Source of the DNA: Candidatus Polarisedimenticolaceae bacterium
GTDB lineage: Bacteria; Acidobacteriota; Polarisedimenticolia; Polarisedimenticolales; DASRJG01
Assembly: GCA_036376135.1 (NCBI GenBank)
Contig: DASVAW010000159.1
Span: 1-64,000, forward strand
Length of the DNA: 64,000 nt
Reading direction: 5' to 3'
Below the pieces are notes generated by a model that searched no databases, was not told the DNA's origin, and was given only the letters and a program-made list of their open reading frames with translations. Every line of letters begins with the position of its first letter. Position 1 is the stretch's first letter. Shown piece by piece: positions 52,092-61,253 of the stretch. The position numbers and the translations under genes are program-made.

Positions 52092-52195
52092 TCGCGGCAG
52101 AACGGCCCCACACCTTCAGAGTTGGATTCGAGACGAGTTCAAGTTGGTTTTCTGAAGGTTGTCGGCGGGTCTTTGGGCGAGTACCCCGGAGGAAT

Positions 52196-52224
52196 TTGGC
52201 TAATTATCGACCAAACGCTATACA
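52196..52224 (+). promoter_or_regulatory. Promoter of the DUF11 locus in an AT-rich stretch
   Basis: TTGGCT (52196-52201) and TATACA (52219-52224) have a 17-base spacer. The surrounding 52190-52285 is far more AT-rich than anything else in the window and includes TATAAA and TATATAGAAT boxes that could be further -10 elements. An inverted repeat CCTTCAGA/TCTGAAGG lies upstream at 52113-52158. Confidence 0.55.
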
Positions 52225-52282
52225 TATAAATACTCTGTATCGTGACTATATAGAATTTGCCTAGTAAATAGTTGTCCATAGA

Positions 52283-53686
52283 TTGCGAAACCGTGTGGGA
52301 GGCAACCCGACGGTTTTCGCACTCGGGGCGGCGGCGATTCTCGCCGTCGCCACCCTTGCGCCCTGCGAGGCCGCCGTGCTGAGGACGATCGCCGTCGACG
52401 GCGATCTCTCGGACTGGTCGGAGGTCCGCTCCGACCCTTACCAACGTTCGCTGGACGGTCCCGCGGGGGCGCTCGTCGACCGCGACGCACCCGTTCCCAC
52501 CACCGGAAGAGACCTCACCGAGTTCGCGTGGACGTGGGACGCGACCCACCTGTTCCTGTACACCGCGCGAGCCGGAAGCGACAACAACCAGCAACGCTTC
52601 TGGTACTACATCGACATCGACGAGGACGGGCGCCAGGAAGCGGCGGAGCCCGTCGTGCTCGTGCAGTGGTTCGGCTCCTCCCGCCGCACCGACGTCTCGC
52701 TCTACCGCTACCTCCCCGCCTCCGCGGGAGGCGATCCTCTCGGCAGCCCCGCCGGATTCGCCGACGGCTGGGACATGCCCGGTGGCGTCCAACTCGTGCG
52801 ATTCGTCGAGAGCGGCTACGGCGGCGAATCGACCGGCCGGCGCATGGAGTCGCGCGTGGCGTGGAGCGAGCTCGGCGTGCCGCCCGGCACGCCGCTCCGC
52901 TTTCACGTCGCCACCTCCGCGAGCACGAACCTCCCCTCGCAGATCCACGACAACATGGGCGGCCCCGGGGGTCTCGTCGGCTGGACCCGCGTCGCGGGCG
53001 TGACGCTCGAACCCGACCGCACGGGGACCGTGTCGGTCGGGGGACGGGTGGCGTACGCCCACACCCTCACGAATACGAGCCTCGCGAGCGATACGTTCAC
53101 GCTCACCTGGGCCGGCACCGGCACGCTCGTCCCGACGTCCGTCGCGTGGCATCGCGACACCGACGCGGACGGCGTCCTCGACGCCGGCGAGCCGGCGGTC
53201 GTCTCCTCGGGACCGGTCGCCGCGGGCGCGTCGATCGCGCTGCTGCTCGTGGTCGACACGCCCGCGGCAGCGACGGACGGCCAGGCCGCGACGTTCACCG
53301 GGCGGTCGACCTCCGCGGCCTCGCCCACGACCTTCGACGTCGTCGTCGACACCGTCACGGTGGCCACGCCGCTCGTGACGCTCGTGAAGTCGGTGGACCG
53401 CGCGGTCGCAGCCCCGGGCGAGACCGTCGCCTATACGCTCACCTACACCGGCGGCGGATCGGCCGCCGCGTACTCCGTCACCGTGACCGACCCGGTCCCC
53501 GCCGGCACCGCCTACGTGCCGGGATCCGCGACGGGCCCGGGCGCTTCGGTGACCTTCAGCCGCGACGGCGGCGCCTCGTACGGCGCCTCCGACGCCCCCC
53601 CGGTGACCCACGTCCGCTTCACGCTCGCCGCCCCCCTGGCGCCGGGCGCGACGGGCTCCGTGTCGTTCCGCGTGACCGTGCAATGA
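52283..53686 (+). CDS. Secreted DUF11 surface protein 1
   Basis: About 467 aa from a TTG at 52283; a GTG at 52295 would also serve, and neither has a Shine-Dalgarno. A signal peptide (FALGAAAILAVATLAPCEA) is followed by a carbohydrate-binding-like beta-domain (about 35-235, LRTIAVDGDLSDW...). A TSP3/dockerin-like Ca loop in DTDADGVLDAGEP (about 292) comes next, and a C-terminal DUF11 domain (about 370-467). The protein stops on the final DUF11 strand (VSFRVTVQ). It should be exported across the inner membrane and assembled at the surface; it has no enzyme motif. It is first of four DUF11 genes. Confidence 0.78.
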   Translation: MRNRVGGNPTVFALGAAAILAVATLAPCEAAVLRTIAVDGDLSDWSEVRSDPYQRSLDGPAGALVDRDAPVPTTGRDLTEFAWTWDATHLFLYTARAGSDNNQQRFWYYIDIDEDGRQEAAEPVVLVQWFGSSRRTDVSLYRYLPASAGGDPLGSPAGFADGWDMPGGVQLVRFVESGYGGESTGRRMESRVAWSELGVPPGTPLRFHVATSASTNLPSQIHDNMGGPGGLVGWTRVAGVTLEPDRTGTVSVGGRVAYAHTLTNTSLASDTFTLTWAGTGTLVPTSVAWHRDTDADGVLDAGEPAVVSSGPVAAGASIALLLVVDTPAAATDGQAATFTGRSTSAASPTTFDVVVDTVTVATPLVTLVKSVDRAVAAPGETVAYTLTYTGGGSAAAYSVTVTDPVPAGTAYVPGSATGPGASVTFSRDGGASYGASDAPPVTHVRFTLAAPLAPGATGSVSFRVTVQ

Positions 53687-53709
53687 CGAAATCGCAGAGG
53701 AGGGACCCG

Positions 53710-54210
53710 ATGAAGATCCGGTATGCGTTCCTGGCCGCGGCGCTCGGGGCCGCCGCCACCGTCGCCCTCGCGACCGCGGGCTCCCCGCGGCTCGAGGTGC
53801 ACGTGCGCGTCGAGCGCGAGGTCGTGAAGGACGACCCGTCGGGGCGCCGCATCGTGCACCGCGAGCCCGTGGGGGTCGCGACGCCGGGGGATACGCTCGT
53901 CTACACGCTCGAGGCCCGCAATGCCGGCGACGCAAACGCCGTGGGGGCGAATCTCGACGACCCCATCCCGGAGGGAACCACGCTCGTGGTCGACTCGGTC
54001 GACCGCGCGGGCGCCTCGCTCTCCGCGAGCCTCGACGGCGCGAAGACCTGGGTCGCCTTCCCCGCCACCCTCGAGCGCCGCGCCGACGACGGGACCGTCA
54101 CCCGCGTCCCCGCGCCCGCCGAGGCCTACACCCACCTTCGCTGGTCCCTGCCGGGCGCGATCGCGCCTGGGGAGAGCCGAAACGTCTCGTTCAAGGTCCG
54201 GATCCGCTAG
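53710..54210 (+). CDS. Secreted DUF11 surface protein 2
   Basis: The 166-aa protein has a signal peptide (MKIRYAFLAAALGAAATVALATAG), a short linker with VHVRVEREVVKDDPSGRR, and one DUF11 domain (about 55-166, TPGDTLVYTLEARNAGDA). It ends NVSFKVRIR, the same terminal strand as its neighbours. AGAGGAGGG precedes the ATG. It is the smallest unit of the locus and may be a subunit that pairs with or caps the others. Confidence 0.78.
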   Translation: MKIRYAFLAAALGAAATVALATAGSPRLEVHVRVEREVVKDDPSGRRIVHREPVGVATPGDTLVYTLEARNAGDANAVGANLDDPIPEGTTLVVDSVDRAGASLSASLDGAKTWVAFPATLERRADDGTVTRVPAPAEAYTHLRWSLPGAIAPGESRNVSFKVRIR

Positions 54211-54247
54211 GCAGCGAGAGTCCGAGAGGAGAGGAGAAGAGAATCCC

Positions 54248-55156
54248 ATGAAACGAACGCGACTCGTCCTTTGGCTCGGGTCCGCGGCGCTCGTCCTGCT
54301 GGCGGCCGCCGCGATCACCCCCGCCTACGCGCTCGGAACGCGCGCGGGCACCACGATCACGAACCAAGCAACGGTGAATTTCACCGACGCCAACGGGAAC
54401 CCCGGAACGGCGCTGTCGAACGTCGTCTCGACGACGGTCAGCCAGGTCGCGGGTGTCACCGTCGACCCGGACAACAACCAGAACGGCACGCCGGGCTCGA
54501 CCCTGTACTTCCCGCACCTCGTCACCAACACCGGGAACTTCGACGATACGGTGAACCTCGCCGCGTCGAGCGCCGCAGGGTGGACCGTCACCCTCTATCG
54601 CGACGTGAACGGCAACCAGGCGTACGATGCGGGCACCGACTTGCTCCTCGCCGACACCAACGGCGATACGATCCCCGACTCGGGGCTGCTCGCCGACGAC
54701 GGCTCCATGCGCATCCTCGTCGCCGTCTCGATCCCGGTCGGAACCGCCAACGGAACACCCGACACGGTCACGGTCACCGGCACGACGGTGTTCGCTCCGA
54801 CCGCGACCGACTCCGCGCTCGACACGATCAACGTGCAGGCTCCGGTCCTCTCCGTGGTGAAGAGCGTCGCCCCGCTCGGCGCGCAGCCCCCCGGGACGGT
54901 CCTCACCTACACGATCGTCGTCACGAACAACGGCGCGGGCGCGGCGAACGCCGTCGTGCTCACCGACCCGGCCCCGACGGACACGACCTACGTCCCGGGC
55001 TCGATCACGGTGGGCGGCAACCCGCGCACCGACGCCGCGGACCCCGACGACTCCGACTTCGGCTTCACCAACGCGGGCCAGGTCACCGTCAACGTGGGAA
55101 CGCTCGCCGCGGGAGGCGGCTCGGTGACCGTCACGTTCCAGGTGACCATCAACTGA
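54248..55156 (+). CDS. Secreted DUF11 surface protein 3
   Basis: The 302-aa protein has a signal peptide ending AYA, an N-terminal ATVNFTDANGNPG unit, and a Ca-binding dockerin-like double loop (DVNGNQAYDAGTD and DTNGDTIPDSG, about 118-147). A C-terminal DUF11 domain (about 198-302) with PPGTVLTYTIVVTNNGAG ends VTFQVTIN. It shares the module order with protein 1. A GAGGAG site precedes the ATG. Hairpins follow before the large barrel gene. Confidence 0.78.
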   Translation: MKRTRLVLWLGSAALVLLAAAAITPAYALGTRAGTTITNQATVNFTDANGNPGTALSNVVSTTVSQVAGVTVDPDNNQNGTPGSTLYFPHLVTNTGNFDDTVNLAASSAAGWTVTLYRDVNGNQAYDAGTDLLLADTNGDTIPDSGLLADDGSMRILVAVSIPVGTANGTPDTVTVTGTTVFAPTATDSALDTINVQAPVLSVVKSVAPLGAQPPGTVLTYTIVVTNNGAGAANAVVLTDPAPTDTTYVPGSITVGGNPRTDAADPDDSDFGFTNAGQVTVNVGTLAAGGGSVTVTFQVTIN

Positions 55157-55164
55157 CACTCGGC

Positions 55165-55219
55165 CGGAACGCAAACGTTCCGTGATCGGCGGGCGGGGCG
55201 TCCTTCGGGGCGCCCCGCC
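55165..55219 (+). terminator. Two hairpins between DUF11 protein 3 and the barrel gene
   Basis: CGGAACG/CGTTCCG (55165-55171, 55176-55182) and GGCGGGGCG/CGCCCCGCC (55192-55200, 55211-55219) are perfect stems without T runs. They may attenuate transcription so that the barrel protein is made in lower amount than the three small proteins. Confidence 0.5.
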
Positions 55220-55256
55220 GCTTCTCACCCTCCGGGCGAAAGGCAGCGTCCTCGAG

Positions 55257-58200
55257 ATGAGCGACGTCCGGCGTGAGCCGTCTTTTCTTTTCGCGCGCGC
55301 GCGCGCGACAAGGAATGCGTGCGTCGCCGCCCTGCTCGCCTGGTCCCCCGCCTTCGCCCAGACGCCCCCCGGCACGACGATCGTCAACATCGCCACGGCG
55401 TCGGTGGGCGCACAGCGCTTCGCGTCGAACGCCGCGTCGACGCGGGTGGCGCCGACGTTCTCGCTCCAGGCGGTCCGGCTCCAGGTCGGACCCTCGGGCA
55501 CGGTGCTTCCCGGCCAGCGCCTGACCTACACGCTCGCGGCGACCAATGCTTCGAACGCCCCGCTCACCGCGGTCCGGCTCGAGCTCCCGCTCGACGACGA
55601 TCTCCGGATCGCGAGCCCCGCCGTCGGGCCGCAGCGCGCCTACGACGCGGCGACCCGCTCGGCTTGGTGGGTGGTGGACGCGCTCGCCCCGGGGGCGAGC
55701 GTGAGCTTCACGGTCGACGCCGTCGTCCGCGAAGACGCGCCGCCGGAGACGCGCGTGGAGCTCGTGGGCCGGGCGCTCGCGGCGGAGGTCGCGGAGCCGG
55801 TGCTCTCGAACCCCGTGCTGAGCATCGTGCTCCCGCCCCTGGTCGCGGTCGAAAAGCGCGTCGATCGCGCGACCGCGATTCCCGGCGAAGCGGTCGGCTA
55901 CACGATCCTCGCGCGCCACACCGGAACGTCCCCCGATCTCCCCGAGGCGACGCTCCTCGATACCCTCCCCGAGCAGCTCCGCTACGTGCCGGGCTCCCTT
56001 CGCGTGGACGGCGCGGCCGTCGGCGAGCCCGCGATCGACGCGGCGGGGCACGAGTTGCGCGTCCCGGTCGGGCCGCTCCCCCCAGGGGGGGTGCGCGTGG
56101 TGCGGCTGGCGGCGCGCGTCGCCGCCACCGCCCGCGCGGGCGAGGCCCTGAACCGGGCCCAGGTGCTCGCCCGCACCGCCGGCGGCTTCGACACCGCCTC
56201 GAACGTCGCGAGCGCGGCGATCGCGGTCGTGCCGGGGCCGTTCCGTCAGGAGGCGCACCTGGTCGGCAGGGTCTTCGTCGACGACGACGACGACGGCGAG
56301 CCGGATCCGGGTGAGCCCGGCGTGCCGGGAGTGCTCGTCGTCGCGGAGGACGGCCGGGGCGCGGTGACGGACATCACCGGCCAGTGGCATCTCGAGGGCG
56401 TCCGCGCCGGAACCCACGTGGTGCGGCTGGACCGATCGACGCTGCCGGAGACGCTGCTCCCCGTCGACGGCGGCGCCGACTGGGGCTCCGACCGCGGCTC
56501 GCGGATCGTCGTCGCCCGCACCGCGTCGCTCGCGATCGCGGACCTTCCCGTCGGGCCGCCGGGGTCGGCACGATGCCGCGTCGCCTCGGGAGACGCGGTT
56601 CTGACCCTCCCGGCGGCGAGCCTGCTCGACGCCCAGGGCGGTGCGTCCCGCACGGTCGACGTGCACCTCGAACAGGCGGCGCAGTACCTCCTCGATACCG
56701 GCGGGCGATCGCCGGACGCGATCGTGGTCGGTTGCCCGGGGTTCGAGCGGAGCGCGCCGGGAATCCGTTCGCGGCTGCGTGAGCTCGTGGCCCGGCGCGC
56801 CGGCGTCGCGGCTCCGGCGCCGGAGCCGTCCGCGCCGTCTCCGTCGCCGGAACCCGCGAAGGACCCGCTCGAACGCGTCGTTCGGGAGTCGCCGCCGGTC
56901 GTGGCGATCGTGTCCCCCGCCGACGGCCACCGTGCCGGTGGCTCGCAGCTCGCGGTCGAGGTCGCCTATCCCGTGGGGAGCCGACCGGTCCTCGAGGTGA
57001 ACGGCGTCGAGGTCCCGACGAGCCGCATCGGCGCCACCTCGACGCTCCCCTCCCGAGGACTCGCCGCCTCGCGATACGTCGGCGTGTCGTTGGTTCCCGG
57101 GCCGAACCTCCTCCGCTTCCATGCCGACGGTGCGGAGGGATCCGTCGAGCGCACGGTTCACGTCCCCGGTCCCGTCGCGGCGCTGAGACTCTCTCCGCCG
57201 GAGACGCGGTGGCTCGCCGACGGCGTGACCCCGGGAAGGGTCCGCGTCGAAGCCGTCGACGCCGGGGGGATGCGCGTCGCCGAGTCCCCCGTCGTGACCG
57301 TGGAGATCGACGGCGCTCGCCCGCTCGCGCCGGACGCCGACCCCGGGGCCGACGGCTGGCAGATCGCGCTCGAGCAGGGTGCGGCCGCCCTCGATCTCGC
57401 GCCACGGACCTTTCCGGGACGGGTCGACCTTCGCGCCCGTCGCGACGAGTTGGAGGCGGAGATCCTCGTCGAGGTCCTCCCCGCCGGCGGCGCCTGGCGC
57501 CTCGTCGGCCTCGCCGAGGCGCGGGTCGCCGGCGACGGCGGCGTCGAGGGAGAAGGGGGAGTTCCCCCGGGCCCCGACGCGGAGGCGCTCGGAAGCGACG
57601 CTCGCCTCGCCGTCCTCGCGCGGGGGCCGATCGGGCGGGACGCCCGTCTCACGGTGTCCCTCGACACCGCCCGCCGGCGCGACACGACGCGCCTGTTCGG
57701 CGGGTTCGAGCCCGACCGGTTCTTCCCGGTCTACGGCGACTCCTCGATCGAGAGCCGCGAGACCGAACGCCAGGGACCGTTGTTCGTCCGCGTCGACGCA
57801 CCGAGCGGATTCGCGCAGCTGGGCGACTTCGAGACCGGCTTCGAGAGGACCGAGCTCGCCCGCTACGACCGTCGACTCAGCGGCGCTTCGGGGCGCGGAC
57901 GGTTCGGACGATTCGAGATCGAGGGGTTCGCGGCGCCGACCGAGCAGACCGTCGTGCGCGATCTCTTCGCCCCGGACGGCACCTCGGGGCCATACCTTCT
58001 GTCCCAGCGTCCGGTGATCGCCCGCTCGGAGCGGATCGTGATCGAGACCCGCGACCGTTACCGGGAGGACGTCGTGCTCGCGCGCCGCCAGCTCGTCGTC
58101 GACCTCGACTACGACCTCGACCCGGAGGCGGGGACGATCCTGTTCCGCGGGCCCGTCGCACCCTTCGACGGCGATCTGAACCCGATTCGGGTCGTGGTGC

Positions 58201-59966
58201 TCTACGAGCTCGACGGGGCGTCGCCCTCGAAGCTCGTGGCAGGCGGTCGCGTCACCTTCCGCCCCGACGATCGCCTGGATGCCGGCGTCTCGCTCGTGCA
58301 CGAGGACCGTCTGGGCGGCGCACTCGACCTCTGGGGGCTCGATCTCGCTTGGCGCCCCCTCCCCGGGACGAGCGTGCGCGCGGAAGTCGCCGGCACGGAT
58401 GACGCCGGATCCACCGCCACCGCGACACGGCTCGAGGCGCGTGGGCGGACGCCGAACCACCTGACGTGGGAGGTCGCCTGGCGCGATCTCCCCGCCGGAT
58501 ACGCGAACCCGACGCTCCTGGCGGCGCCGGAGGTCGGCTCGCGCCGCCTGGGGGGGAGCCTCCTGTGGGACCCCGGGCGGGCCTGGCGCGTCAAGGCGGA
58601 GGCGTTCTCGCAGCAGGACCTCGAGACCGACCGCTCGCGATCCGTGGCGTTCGTGCAGACCGAACGTCGCTTCGACCGGATGACGCTCCTCGGAGGCCTC
58701 CACGCCGTCGACTCCGAGGAGGGAGGGACCTCGTCCCGGGCGACGCTCGCGGAAGCCGGCATCCGCGGCCGCCTCGGGCGTCGGCTCACCGCGGAGATCT
58801 CGCGGCGCGAGGCGCTGGGCGGAGAAACGACCGAGGGTTACGGCCCCCGCACGCTCGCCGGACTCGCTTACGACCTCGCCGAAGGACGGCGCCTGTTCCT
58901 GCGTCATGAGGCGGAGTCGGGGGACGGCCAGACCCGCGACCGCACCGCGCTCGGGGTCGAGACGCGCATCGGTGCGAACACGAAGGCGACGGCACGCTAC
59001 GAGATGCAGGGCGGGGCGTCCGGCACGGCGCTCCGTTCGGCGACGGGGATCGAGACCGTCCTCCCGCTGCGCCCGGGCCTGTCCCTCCAGCTCGCCGCCT
59101 CACGCGTCGATACGACGCGCGGCGACGATGCGTCGGACTTCACGACGCTCGCCGCGGGCATCGAGCGTCGGGCGGGAGATTCGCTGCTCTCGGCGCGATG
59201 GGAGACGAGCCTGCAGTCGTTGGAGACGCGCCACGTCGCGACCGTCTCCGGGGCGTTCCGCGCGGGCCCGTCGTGGATGGTGTTCGCGCGCGAGCGGCTC
59301 TTCGCCTCCTCGCCGGAGCGCGGGGATCGCGCGGCGCGAGCGGAGGGACTCTGGGGCGCCGCGTACCGCCCGTTCGCGGGGCGGTGGCAGGCGCTCTTGC
59401 GACTCGATCACATCACCTCGGGCGGCACTCCCACGACCGCGGGGGCCATCCTCGGGTCGCCGCCGCCGGCGGCGACCCCGCCGGGACTCGGCACCGATCC
59501 TTCGAGGTCGTCGCTCGGGCCGGATCTCCAGACGATCGTCGCGGCCCTGGGCGTCCGGGCGTCGTCGCGCCAACGCCTGGCCGGGACGGTGGCGCTCCGG
59601 CGGGTGGACGCGGAGCCTTCGATCCACGTCGGCTCGAGCCTGACGACATTGCTGGGCCTCCACTACACCGCGGAGGTGCATCCTCGGTGGACGCTCGGCG
59701 CCTCCGCGCGGCACTTCGCGCAACGCGACACGCGGACTTCCTCGTTCGGCGCGGGGGTGGAGGCGGGATATCTCGTCGTCCGGAACCTCTGGGTGCTCGG
59801 CGGATGGAACGTGCTCGGATTCCGGGACGACGGATTCTCCGACCTGGACCGGACCGATCGCGGACCGTTCGTCGCGCTGCGGTTCAAGTTCGACGAACGG
59901 ACGATCGAGGCGCTACAGGACTGGCGATTGGATCGACCCCACGGCGGGGTTACGGCGCGACGCTGA
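55257..59966 (+). CDS. Large DUF11/SdrD-type/outer-membrane barrel protein
   Basis: The 1569-aa protein begins with a signal peptide after a positively charged stretch that contains a (CG)7 tract. Residues 60-330 hold DUF11 repeats (AVEKRVDRATAIPGEAVGYT). About 334-400 is an SdrD_B/CnaB-like domain with acidic Ca loop VFVDDDDDGEPDPGEPG. About 540-770 has Ig-like units (PPVVAIVSPADGHRAGG, VTPGRVRVEAVDAGG). From about 778 to the end it shows long amphipathic strands including FFPVYGDSS, GPLFVRVDAP and FAQLGDFETGF, ending FVALRFKFD plus a tail. This is an outer-membrane beta-barrel with a large surface or periplasmic array. I infer that it anchors or assembles the three small DUF11 proteins. The ATG lacks a strong ribosome site. 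Confidence 0.85.
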   Translation: MSDVRREPSFLFARARATRNACVAALLAWSPAFAQTPPGTTIVNIATASVGAQRFASNAASTRVAPTFSLQAVRLQVGPSGTVLPGQRLTYTLAATNASNAPLTAVRLELPLDDDLRIASPAVGPQRAYDAATRSAWWVVDALAPGASVSFTVDAVVREDAPPETRVELVGRALAAEVAEPVLSNPVLSIVLPPLVAVEKRVDRATAIPGEAVGYTILARHTGTSPDLPEATLLDTLPEQLRYVPGSLRVDGAAVGEPAIDAAGHELRVPVGPLPPGGVRVVRLAARVAATARAGEALNRAQVLARTAGGFDTASNVASAAIAVVPGPFRQEAHLVGRVFVDDDDDGEPDPGEPGVPGVLVVAEDGRGAVTDITGQWHLEGVRAGTHVVRLDRSTLPETLLPVDGGADWGSDRGSRIVVARTASLAIADLPVGPPGSARCRVASGDAVLTLPAASLLDAQGGASRTVDVHLEQAAQYLLDTGGRSPDAIVVGCPGFERSAPGIRSRLRELVARRAGVAAPAPEPSAPSPSPEPAKDPLERVVRESPPVVAIVSPADGHRAGGSQLAVEVAYPVGSRPVLEVNGVEVPTSRIGATSTLPSRGLAASRYVGVSLVPGPNLLRFHADGAEGSVERTVHVPGPVAALRLSPPETRWLADGVTPGRVRVEAVDAGGMRVAESPVVTVEIDGARPLAPDADPGADGWQIALEQGAAALDLAPRTFPGRVDLRARRDELEAEILVEVLPAGGAWRLVGLAEARVAGDGGVEGEGGVPPGPDAEALGSDARLAVLARGPIGRDARLTVSLDTARRRDTTRLFGGFEPDRFFPVYGDSSIESRETERQGPLFVRVDAPSGFAQLGDFETGFERTELARYDRRLSGASGRGRFGRFEIEGFAAPTEQTVVRDLFAPDGTSGPYLLSQRPVIARSERIVIETRDRYREDVVLARRQLVVDLDYDLDPEAGTILFRGPVAPFDGDLNPIRVVVLYELDGASPSKLVAGGRVTFRPDDRLDAGVSLVHEDRLGGALDLWGLDLAWRPLPGTSVRAEVAGTDDAGSTATATRLEARGRTPNHLTWEVAWRDLPAGYANPTLLAAPEVGSRRLGGSLLWDPGRAWRVKAEAFSQQDLETDRSRSVAFVQTERRFDRMTLLGGLHAVDSEEGGTSSRATLAEAGIRGRLGRRLTAEISRREALGGETTEGYGPRTLAGLAYDLAEGRRLFLRHEAESGDGQTRDRTALGVETRIGANTKATARYEMQGGASGTALRSATGIETVLPLRPGLSLQLAASRVDTTRGDDASDFTTLAAGIERRAGDSLLSARWETSLQSLETRHVATVSGAFRAGPSWMVFARERLFASSPERGDRAARAEGLWGAAYRPFAGRWQALLRLDHITSGGTPTTAGAILGSPPPAATPPGLGTDPSRSSLGPDLQTIVAALGVRASSRQRLAGTVALRRVDAEPSIHVGSSLTTLLGLHYTAEVHPRWTLGASARHFAQRDTRTSSFGAGVEAGYLVVRNLWVLGGWNVLGFRDDGFSDLDRTDRGPFVALRFKFDERTIEALQDWRLDRPHGGVTARR

Positions 59967-61212
59967 GTCTGCCGTCCTCCGGCCGAATCGAACGGCTCTC
60001 GTTCTCGTAGAGGAAGCTCTCGATCGCCCGCCGGTCCTCCGCACCGAACCGCTCGAACTCGACCCCCATCCCGGGCACCTGGAGGTCGCGTCCGGAGGCG
60101 GCGTCCTGGAGCGGCACCGCGCGGACCACCCGCCCGATGACGTGGACGTTGCCGACGGCATTCGGGAGCGGAAACGAGATCGCGCAGCGCATGCCGATCT
60201 CGATGGGCGCGGGGGTCGAAACGAACAGGCCGCTGGGCGAGAGGTCCTTCGTGTACCCGAGCAGCAGCGGCTCCGAGCCGTCGAGGTAGACCGGCGTGCG
60301 AAGCGGCACGCGCGGCCGGCGCGTGTAACACCAGACGCGGTTGCGGCCGAGCTCGCGCGCTTCCCGCAGCGCGTCCTCGGCTCGGGCCAGCAGATCCGAG
60401 GGGCCGTCCGCGTCGGCGGGGAACGTCGCGGCCCCGAGGCTGAGGGTGAGCCGAAGGCCTCCCTCGGACGCACCCGGGTGAAGGAACCGGAATCGTTCGA
60501 CGGTCGAGCGGAGACGCGCAGCGATCTGCCGGGCGCTGCCGCGGCCGATCCCGGACAGGATCAATCCGAAGTCGTCGCCGCCCAGCCGCGCGATCAGATC
60601 CTCGTCGCGCACGGTCGCCCGGAGGATCCCGGCGATCTTGCAGAGGACGGCGTTCTCCGCTTCACGACCGAAACGATCCCCCACCTTCCGGAGATGATCG
60701 ACGTCGGCGAGGATCACCGCGAGCGGGCGCGCGTTCCTCGCGGCGACGCGAAGGTCCGCGTCGAGCCGCTCCAGGAAGCTCTCGCGCGTCGCGAGCCCCG
60801 TGAGCGCGTCGGTCGGCTCGGCCGGATCGGCGGGGCCCTCGGTGGCGGCGAGCACGCGGTGGATGACGACGGTGACGCGGTCCCCGGCGCCGGGGGTCCG
60901 GAACGCGGAGGCCTCCACGTCGAGAAGCCGACCGTCGGCGCATCGCACGCGAAGCTCGAGAGGGAGGATCCCGGAGCGCCGGCGCAGGGACTCGATGTCG
61001 AAGGTCAACGGCGTGCGGCGCCCCCCCTCCTCGACGATGCACAGCGAACGGCCTTCGACGCGATCGCGGCCCACCACCTCGGCCGCCGACCAGCCGGTCA
61101 CGCGCTCGAGCCGCTCGTCGAACCCGAGGATCGTCCCGTGAGCATCGACGATCAGGGACCCGGAATCCGAGGTCCGTGCCCTGTAGCCGTCCGCAACGCT
61201 TCGCTCCCCCAT
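59950..61212 (-). CDS. PAS-GGDEF-PilZ diguanylate cyclase
   Basis: The 420-aa protein has a PAS domain (about 20-120, LIVDAHGTILGFDERL), a GGDEF domain (about 135-290) with signature ARLGGDDFGLIL (about 210) and a C-terminal PilZ domain (about 295-400) with RRPRVPLR and DLSPSGLF. GGDDF is a permitted active-site variant, and the PilZ would bind the c-di-GMP made. The ATG at 61212 has GAGGAGGGG upstream. The 3' end overlaps the barrel gene by 17 bases. Confidence 0.92.
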   Translation of the reverse strand: MGERSVADGYRARTSDSGSLIVDAHGTILGFDERLERVTGWSAAEVVGRDRVEGRSLCIVEEGGRRTPLTFDIESLRRRSGILPLELRVRCADGRLLDVEASAFRTPGAGDRVTVVIHRVLAATEGPADPAEPTDALTGLATRESFLERLDADLRVAARNARPLAVILADVDHLRKVGDRFGREAENAVLCKIAGILRATVRDEDLIARLGGDDFGLILSGIGRGSARQIAARLRSTVERFRFLHPGASEGGLRLTLSLGAATFPADADGPSDLLARAEDALREARELGRNRVWCYTRRPRVPLRTPVYLDGSEPLLLGYTKDLSPSGLFVSTPAPIEIGMRCAISFPLPNAVGNVHVIGRVVRAVPLQDAASGRDLQVPGMGVEFERFGAEDRRAIESFLYENESRSIRPEDGRLSVAP

Positions 61213-61227
61213 CGTCCCCTCCTCAAC

Positions 61228-61253
61228 CACCCCATTAGATACCTACTGGGGTG
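61228..61253 (-). promoter_or_regulatory. Inverted repeat ahead of the GGDEF gene
   Basis: CACCCCA (61228-61234) and TGGGGTG (61247-61253) form a perfect 7-bp inverted repeat with a 12-base spacer, 16 bases upstream of the GGDEF start. It may be an operator. The divergent gap 61213-61397 is AT-rich and should hold promoters for both sides. Confidence 0.4.

Follow-up and report, generated by a model that had tools for sequence, protein, structure and literature searches.

Gene content of the DUF11 locus

The window, meaning the whole stretch of 64,000 nt that was analysed (contig C159), is part of genome G000, which comprises 4.38 Mb in 179 contigs. Gene calling and ORF reading place four tandem ORFs, A to D, on the forward strand, and DUF11 scores above the Pfam cut-off in every product (A, 1.2e-7; B, 4e-6; C, 8.7e-9; D, 1.2e-16, in two copies). 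The NCBIfam DUF11 repeat also passes in 4 of 4 proteins. An earlier note that had described a four-gene DUF11 locus was right in substance, apart from a start at 52113, as gene calling places no gene in 52092–52282. The features are as follows (open bodies and donor segments are described in later sections).

Gene A: 52283–53686, forward strand; 467 aa, TTG start, or GTG at 52295; signal sequence, N-domain (~32–236), NEW3/Ig-like domain, C-terminal open DUF11
Open DUF11 body of A: 53378–53686, forward strand; residues 366–467, DUF11 profile 3–85 of 114; C-terminal end ...GSVSFRVTVQ, followed by the stop codon
Gene B: 53710–54210, forward strand; 166 aa; signal sequence and a single open DUF11 body, conserved lysine absent
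Gene C: 54248–55156, forward strand; 302 aa; signal sequence, donor segment, Ig-like domain, open DUF11 body
Donor segment of C: 54335–54448, forward strand; residues 30–67, GTRAGTTITNQATVNFTD...SNVVSTTVSQV
Invariant Asn39 of the C donor: 54362–54364, forward strand
Open DUF11 body of C: 54848–55156, forward strand; residues 201–302
Invariant residues of the C body: Lys205, 54860–54862, and Asp240, 54965–54967, forward strand
Gene D: 55257–59966, forward strand; 1569 aa; signal sequence, donor segment, two complete DUF11 domains, SdrD-like and Ig-like units, C-terminal barrel
Donor segment of D: 55362–55448, forward strand; residues ~36–64, TPPGTTIVNIATASV...SNAASTRV
Asn44 of the D donor: 55386–55388, forward strand
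Second DUF11 of D: 55842–56222, forward strand; complete, profile 2–114 of 114; a single chain contains the Lys, Asp and Asn
Barrel region of D: 57597–59894, forward strand; residues ~781–1546, conserved in the family, with the FFPVYGDSS motif inside

Sec-type signal sequences on the module proteins were judged by inspection. For the calcium-binding loops proposed earlier, DxNGN- and DxDGD-type stretches can be seen by eye, and no EF-hand family scores above its cut-off. Rfam gave no match anywhere in the window. Just upstream of A lies an AT-rich stretch (52190–52282) within GC-rich surroundings, with TTTGG...CCAAA half-sites, which is perhaps a promoter region. The genes flanking the module encode DUF362, PLD-like, GGDEF-PilZ and M24 proteins, and one protein without a match. 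D and a reverse-strand gene (59950–61230) are convergent and share 17 bases at the end of D; this gene encodes PAS-like, GGDEF (1.2e-32) and PilZ (4.5e-15) domains, and control of the module by c-di-GMP is conceivable.

Conservation of the B-C-D genes

Genes of related contigs were called with a codon-model caller trained on the window, and the sample consisted of 396 genomes of the phylum, the class included. Lack of co-conservation had been named beforehand as the refuting outcome, and the test did not refute the unit. Profiles of full-length B (at least 112 bits) and of the D barrel (at least 667 bits) mark the same 14 of the 396 genomes, the D-like barrels ranking next in this sample scoring 336 bits or less, and wherever contigs permit the gene order is B-C-D on one strand. 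Close homologues in this order and orientation are present in eight genomes of the class, while a longer C (666–678 aa) accompanies B and D in G019, G024 and G030, which belong to another family of this class, and in G063, G109 and G382, which are placed elsewhere in the phylum. The G024 contig with B and C stops directly after C, D being on a different contig, and in G020 the contig stops inside D. Intergenic gaps within the loci are 1–191 bp when G109 is set aside; the 3311-bp gap in the latter is a caller artefact, only the late part of the 1926-codon D frame having been called. Co-conservation also reaches beyond the phylum, since the gammaproteobacterial contig QJXZ01000267.1 carries an A-like gene followed by B (162 aa), C (422 aa) and D (2286 aa). 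B, C and D together constitute a conserved module. As the 14 genomes share ancestry, their number reflects consistent linkage and, read as 14 independent events, would overstate independence.

Response-regulator-like genes, recognised by eye, lie near several B-C-D loci (L005 945–1655, L033 2662–3303, L098 5994–7379, L099 11241–12659). A DUF11/barrel locus of the same kind is found on plasmid p4 of Acinetobacter haemolyticus (CP085288.1; L132 2247–15243), where an OmpA-family gene and an additional DUF11 gene are located downstream of D, and where the C-like part is split over several frames, by sequencing error or by decay.

Gene A had been counted as part of the unit, and in this respect the earlier description has to be corrected. 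It lies within the operon only in G000 and G001, its homologues being unlinked to the operon in G003, G016, G017 and G020, and in G002 its place is taken by a beta-helix protein with a terminal DUF11. Since A falls outside the conserved core, the gradation of sizes (467, 166 and 302 aa), correct as a set of numbers, means little.

DUF11 bodies that end early

The Pfam model of DUF11 has 114 positions. In C, positions 2–84 match residues 201–301 of 302, in the A protein of G017 positions 1–84 match residues 349–451 of 452, and in that of G016 the match covers 3–85; the C-terminal DUF11 of B also stops near position 84. As controls, three DUF11 proteins of G016 encoded outside the operon match up to position 112 or 113, and most strong DUF11 matches elsewhere in four such genomes extend to positions 97–114. 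Within the module, the second DUF11 of D is complete in one chain, whereas in A, B and C the match or the chain ends at about position 84. When the bodies of eight C and seven A-type proteins are aligned, 15 of 15 end in one column. Because DUF11 stops at a common column, the final ~30 positions, equivalent to two strands, are absent from the C-terminus, and we conclude from profile and alignment that the DUF11 body at the C-terminus of A, B and C lacks its last two strands.

The AlphaFold model of C, based on 15 sequences (mean pLDDT 85.9), has seven strands in the body (201–301), the last reaching residue 301 of 302, two strands in the donor segment (36–43 and 56–63), and an Ig-like domain between donor and body. 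The DUF11 crystal structure 9IFR has nine strands, in sheets of four and five (PMC12617251), so the seven body strands and two donor strands of C add up to the number counted there. Foldseek comparison of the model with the PDB returned generic Ig stacks only, and a search of the PDB with the C profile found no chain at an E-value of 1.

The missing strands at the N-termini of C and D

The mature N-termini of C and D correspond to the two strands that are absent from the bodies (GTTITNQATVNF; GTTIVNIATASV), mature C starting with GTRAGTTITNQATVNFTDANGNPGTALSNVVSTTVSQV and mature D with TPPGTTIVNIATASV. A profile built from eight C N-termini alone (residues 30–67) was searched against 312 proteins. 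It finds the N-termini of divergent C proteins (best 7e-9) and those of D proteins, among them G005 (2.6e-3), G003 (4e-3) and others. The D proteins of G063 and G382 match it at 1.7e-7 and 2.9e-7. The D N-terminus of the window itself matches weakly (E-value 1.6), and the donor link between C and D thus rests on the D homologues. Internal matches of the profile after a DUF11 body reach 7e-7. Among the nine internal matches at an E-value of 1 or less, six start immediately behind a called DUF11 body, a position that accounts for 1.6% of residues; by eye, two of the others follow a DUF11 body and one does not. The reverse profile, made from the DUF11 tails of 107 repeats of giant proteins, missed the N-termini of C and D, near-identical repeats having dominated it. 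Taken as sequence evidence, these matches show that mature C and D begin with what are the two final strands of DUF11, and that their donors are homologous.

The same parts are found fused in cis. Two giant proteins (5422 and 5429 aa) with a related barrel at the C-terminus contain a unit matching C 26–253 and 26–257 (1.3e-39 and 5.9e-38), which starts where the preceding DUF11 body ends (...SRQFTVTVNA/GVTAGTVIGNSGTISF, the stroke marking the border). By its position, the donor in these proteins completes the preceding body within the same chain. Both giants are secreted proteins with long runs of DUF11 repeats fused to the D-like barrel (5429 aa, L086 2525–18814; 5422 aa, L087 2332–18600).

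From the distribution of these complementary parts, B-C-D, together with A or other adhesin-like partners, probably forms an outer-membrane-anchored fibre built by donor-strand complementation of a split DUF11 domain. It could instead be that C closes upon itself, or that the bodies are stable without their last strands, with A, B and C remaining separate proteins of a surface coat or of the periplasm. For C, sequence alone cannot tell closure in cis from closure in trans, and the AlphaFold donor strands are of moderate confidence (pLDDT ~76–85), the model giving no partner for them. Self-closure is nevertheless distinctly unlikely: A and B lack a donor for their open bodies, and D possesses a donor but no open body, so that these three, at the least, depend on a partner, and in C itself the Ig-like domain sits between the two halves.

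Other proteins with a terminal open DUF11

From about position 66 onward, the C profile matches A and five of its homologues at 5e-38 to 4e-54 (for the A protein of the window, the C-terminal half against positions 66–301, 4.7e-38). As the match covers A only from that point, A can be described as a C protein in which the donor has been exchanged for another domain. This N-domain (~32–236) has no match in Pfam or the PDB, and a resemblance to CBM9/DOMON-type modules noticed by eye is for that reason not claimed. A further protein, E, is encoded 3' of D in G019, G024 and G030 and has a DUF11 at the C-terminal end in 3 of 3 cases. In G019, E carries a CBM96 carbohydrate-binding module, and its first DUF11 is complete (5–111 of 114), unlike the terminal one, which stops at the body end. 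An unlinked protein of 177 aa in G002 (contig C101; L084 6515–7048) has an open DUF11 body that is 54% identical to that of C, with the Lys and the Asp substituted.

Several proteins with unrelated N-domains therefore share the same C-terminal open DUF11, as would be expected of a sorting tail, and D bears a donor. This would also suit a simpler arrangement, in which the donor of D binds a single A, B or C molecule by its open DUF11, and D displays that molecule or helps in its export, the open DUF11 acting as a docking or sorting tail and a long fibre being absent. Docking without polymerisation appears fairly unlikely, as C combines donor and open body in 15 loci, a conserved arrangement that invites chain growth, and as several units follow one another in the cis fusions. 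The fibre accommodates the same proteins as end pieces: A and E, with an open body and no donor, would correspond to two-domain tip adhesins.

Protein D and its barrel

The description of the 1569-aa protein as a combination of DUF11, SdrD-like and Ig-like units with a barrel is borne out by profile matches and by the AlphaFold model. The SdrD-like domain is below the Pfam cut-off (E-value 9.9e-5), the D-family profile matching a solved SdrD structure at 1.7e-9, and the Ig-like region at residues 643–735 resembles the C-terminal Ig domains of GH2 (Pfam 0.011, sub-threshold; PDB 0.0018). Residues 541–1569 are modelled as a barrel of ~31–37 long strands with an insertion after about six of them (pLDDT 74.7, pTM 0.52). 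Against the PDB, Foldseek found large barrels only and no close match, with TM-scores of 0.28 or less, at which no fold can be assigned.

The large barrel with its insertion, and the presence of FimD, LptD and SprA among these generic fold matches, could be taken to mean that D is a translocation pore of usher-like or secretion type that exports A, B and C, strand pairing being only a part of substrate recognition. With the fold unassignable at such scores, and with no usher, autotransporter or secretion family matched by D in Pfam or NCBIfam, a pore of this kind seems very improbable. That the barrel protein anchors or assembles the small proteins, as had been suggested before, gains support from the donor-like segment at the D N-terminus, which matches the start of C; the suggestion as first made included A, a part that is not upheld, and named no mechanism of assembly.

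A second DUF11/SdrD protein (1698 aa) is encoded in the same genome (contig C165; L042 4281–17845), where it adjoins an OmpA-domain protein (1689 aa) of which one region is related to the D barrel. The pair is located downstream of ExbB/ExbD/ExbD-like genes and a gene of 505 aa, all named by eye, and this locus is possibly an energised relative of the module.

Residues of a possible isopeptide bond

In DUF11, which has been renamed CLIPPER, Lys715 and Asn806 form an isopeptide bond, with Asp748 as the presumed catalyst (PMC12617251). Aligning the D-family profile to 9IFR puts the Lys in the first strand, the Asp in the D-x-LP turn (with the count shifted by one residue from the published position) and the Asn in the last strand pair. 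Two of these residues, Lys205 and Asp240, do not vary among the C proteins and belong to the body. The third, Asn39, is equally constant and belongs to the donor, and a donor Asn is found in every C protein (15 of 15) and every D protein (15 of 15). The A bodies keep the Lys and an acid, as do, read by eye, the bodies of the long C proteins and of E. A conserved Lys is absent from B, as is the Asp in some lineages.

With Lys and Asp in the acceptor and Asn in the donor, pairing in trans would bond one subunit to another, and isopeptide bonds between subunits, in the manner of a natural tag and catcher, are possible. The fuller proposition, that a split autocatalytic DUF11/CLIPPER domain covalently joins a pilus without sortase, chaperone or usher, the D N-terminus being the tag of a covalent base, is put forward tentatively, the balance leaning somewhat against it.

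A model for assembly

We infer export, strand exchange in trans, growth and polarity of the polymer, and any covalent bond from the arrangement of the parts. After export by the Sec pathway, the N-terminal donor of D would fill the open DUF11 of one C, and the donor of that C would fill the next C, and so onward, generating the shaft. D, with a donor and no open body, would be the base, with its barrel fixing it in the outer membrane, and C, having both halves of the joint, the repeating subunit. A, a C-like body with a different N-domain in place of the donor, would close the far end as a tip. B, an acceptor without the bond-forming Lys, might be a reversible cap, an initiator or a placeholder, its role being a guess. 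The joints D-C, C-C and C-A could be covalent without a sortase, which is less certain than the pairing of strands. A fibre is more likely than the sheath or layer that had also been considered.

Comparison with known systems

By analogy, the module would be likened above all to an archaeal thread and also to chaperone-usher pili and TasA fibres. Chaperone-usher pili (type 1, P) consist of incomplete Ig-like subunits with an N-terminal donor extension, and have a two-domain tip adhesin and an outer-membrane barrel at the base. C, by its sequence, has a comparable incomplete Ig-like domain and N-terminal donor extension. The module differs in that the barrel protein bears its own donor, two strands are missing instead of one, and the joints are possibly covalent, and no gene for a PapD-like periplasmic chaperone was found around the module of the window or within the B-C-D loci that were read. 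Type V pili are made from a lipoprotein precursor with a lipobox cysteine, and their donor is freed by a protease. On inspection of 15 loci no lipobox cysteine was seen, the donors of C and D following directly after a Sec-type signal, and there is no LPXTG-type C-terminal sorting signal in A, B and C, which stop at the last body strand. Three absences among the tested features (chaperone gene, lipobox cysteine and LPXTG) led us to reject membership in the chaperone-usher, type V and sortase pili.

The archaeal thread formed by Saci_0406 (PMC9715654) is assembled by head-to-tail donor-strand complementation with a proposed isopeptide link, and the likeness of the module to it is drawn from sequence and single-chain models. 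Neither a chaperone nor an usher is known for the thread, and its putative cap is a co-expressed protein that contains half of a joint. Unlike the module, the thread has no reported DUF11 and no outer membrane or barrel. Its link runs from Asn57 to the N-terminal Asp24 of the subunit two positions further along, whereas the Lys-Asn pair of the module would lie inside the joint. A sequence relation to the solved thread subunit did not emerge from the PDB search with the C profile. TasA/camelysin fibres and archaeal bundling pili are likewise chaperone-free fibres formed by donor-strand exchange (PMC9674648; references in PMC11952670); their folds and hosts are different, and barrel anchor and DUF11 are absent there. 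In SpyTag/SpyCatcher-type pairs, a split isopeptide domain re-forms across two chains and can lock covalently (PMC5487036, PMC6539128). Those domains were split in the laboratory, whereas the split in the module would be natural and would concern a CnaA-like DUF11.

With the DUF11/CLIPPER stalks of fibrillar adhesins (PF01345, TIGR01451; 9IFR, PMC12617251), the module proteins share the family, secretion and the Lys, Asp and Asn residues, and by sequence the module belongs to DUF11/CLIPPER. In the known CLIPPER examples, the nine strands and the bond are in one chain, whereas in the module the last two strands and the Asn would be on another subunit and A, B and C are small and separate proteins; a split domain is not described in the passages of PMC12617251 that were consulted. 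A literature search, covering few subscription journals, returned no account of this system, and the single paper with both DUF11 and a donor strand handles them separately.

Implications

If the proposed fibre is real, it would represent an undescribed family of Gram-negative surface fibres, occurring in several deep lineages and built from DUF11, a domain that is very common yet poorly understood. It would explain the small secreted proteins with a shortened terminal DUF11 that are encoded beside large DUF11-barrel proteins. The split domain would also be a natural counterpart of engineered tag/catcher chemistry, and a source of new tag/catcher pairs.
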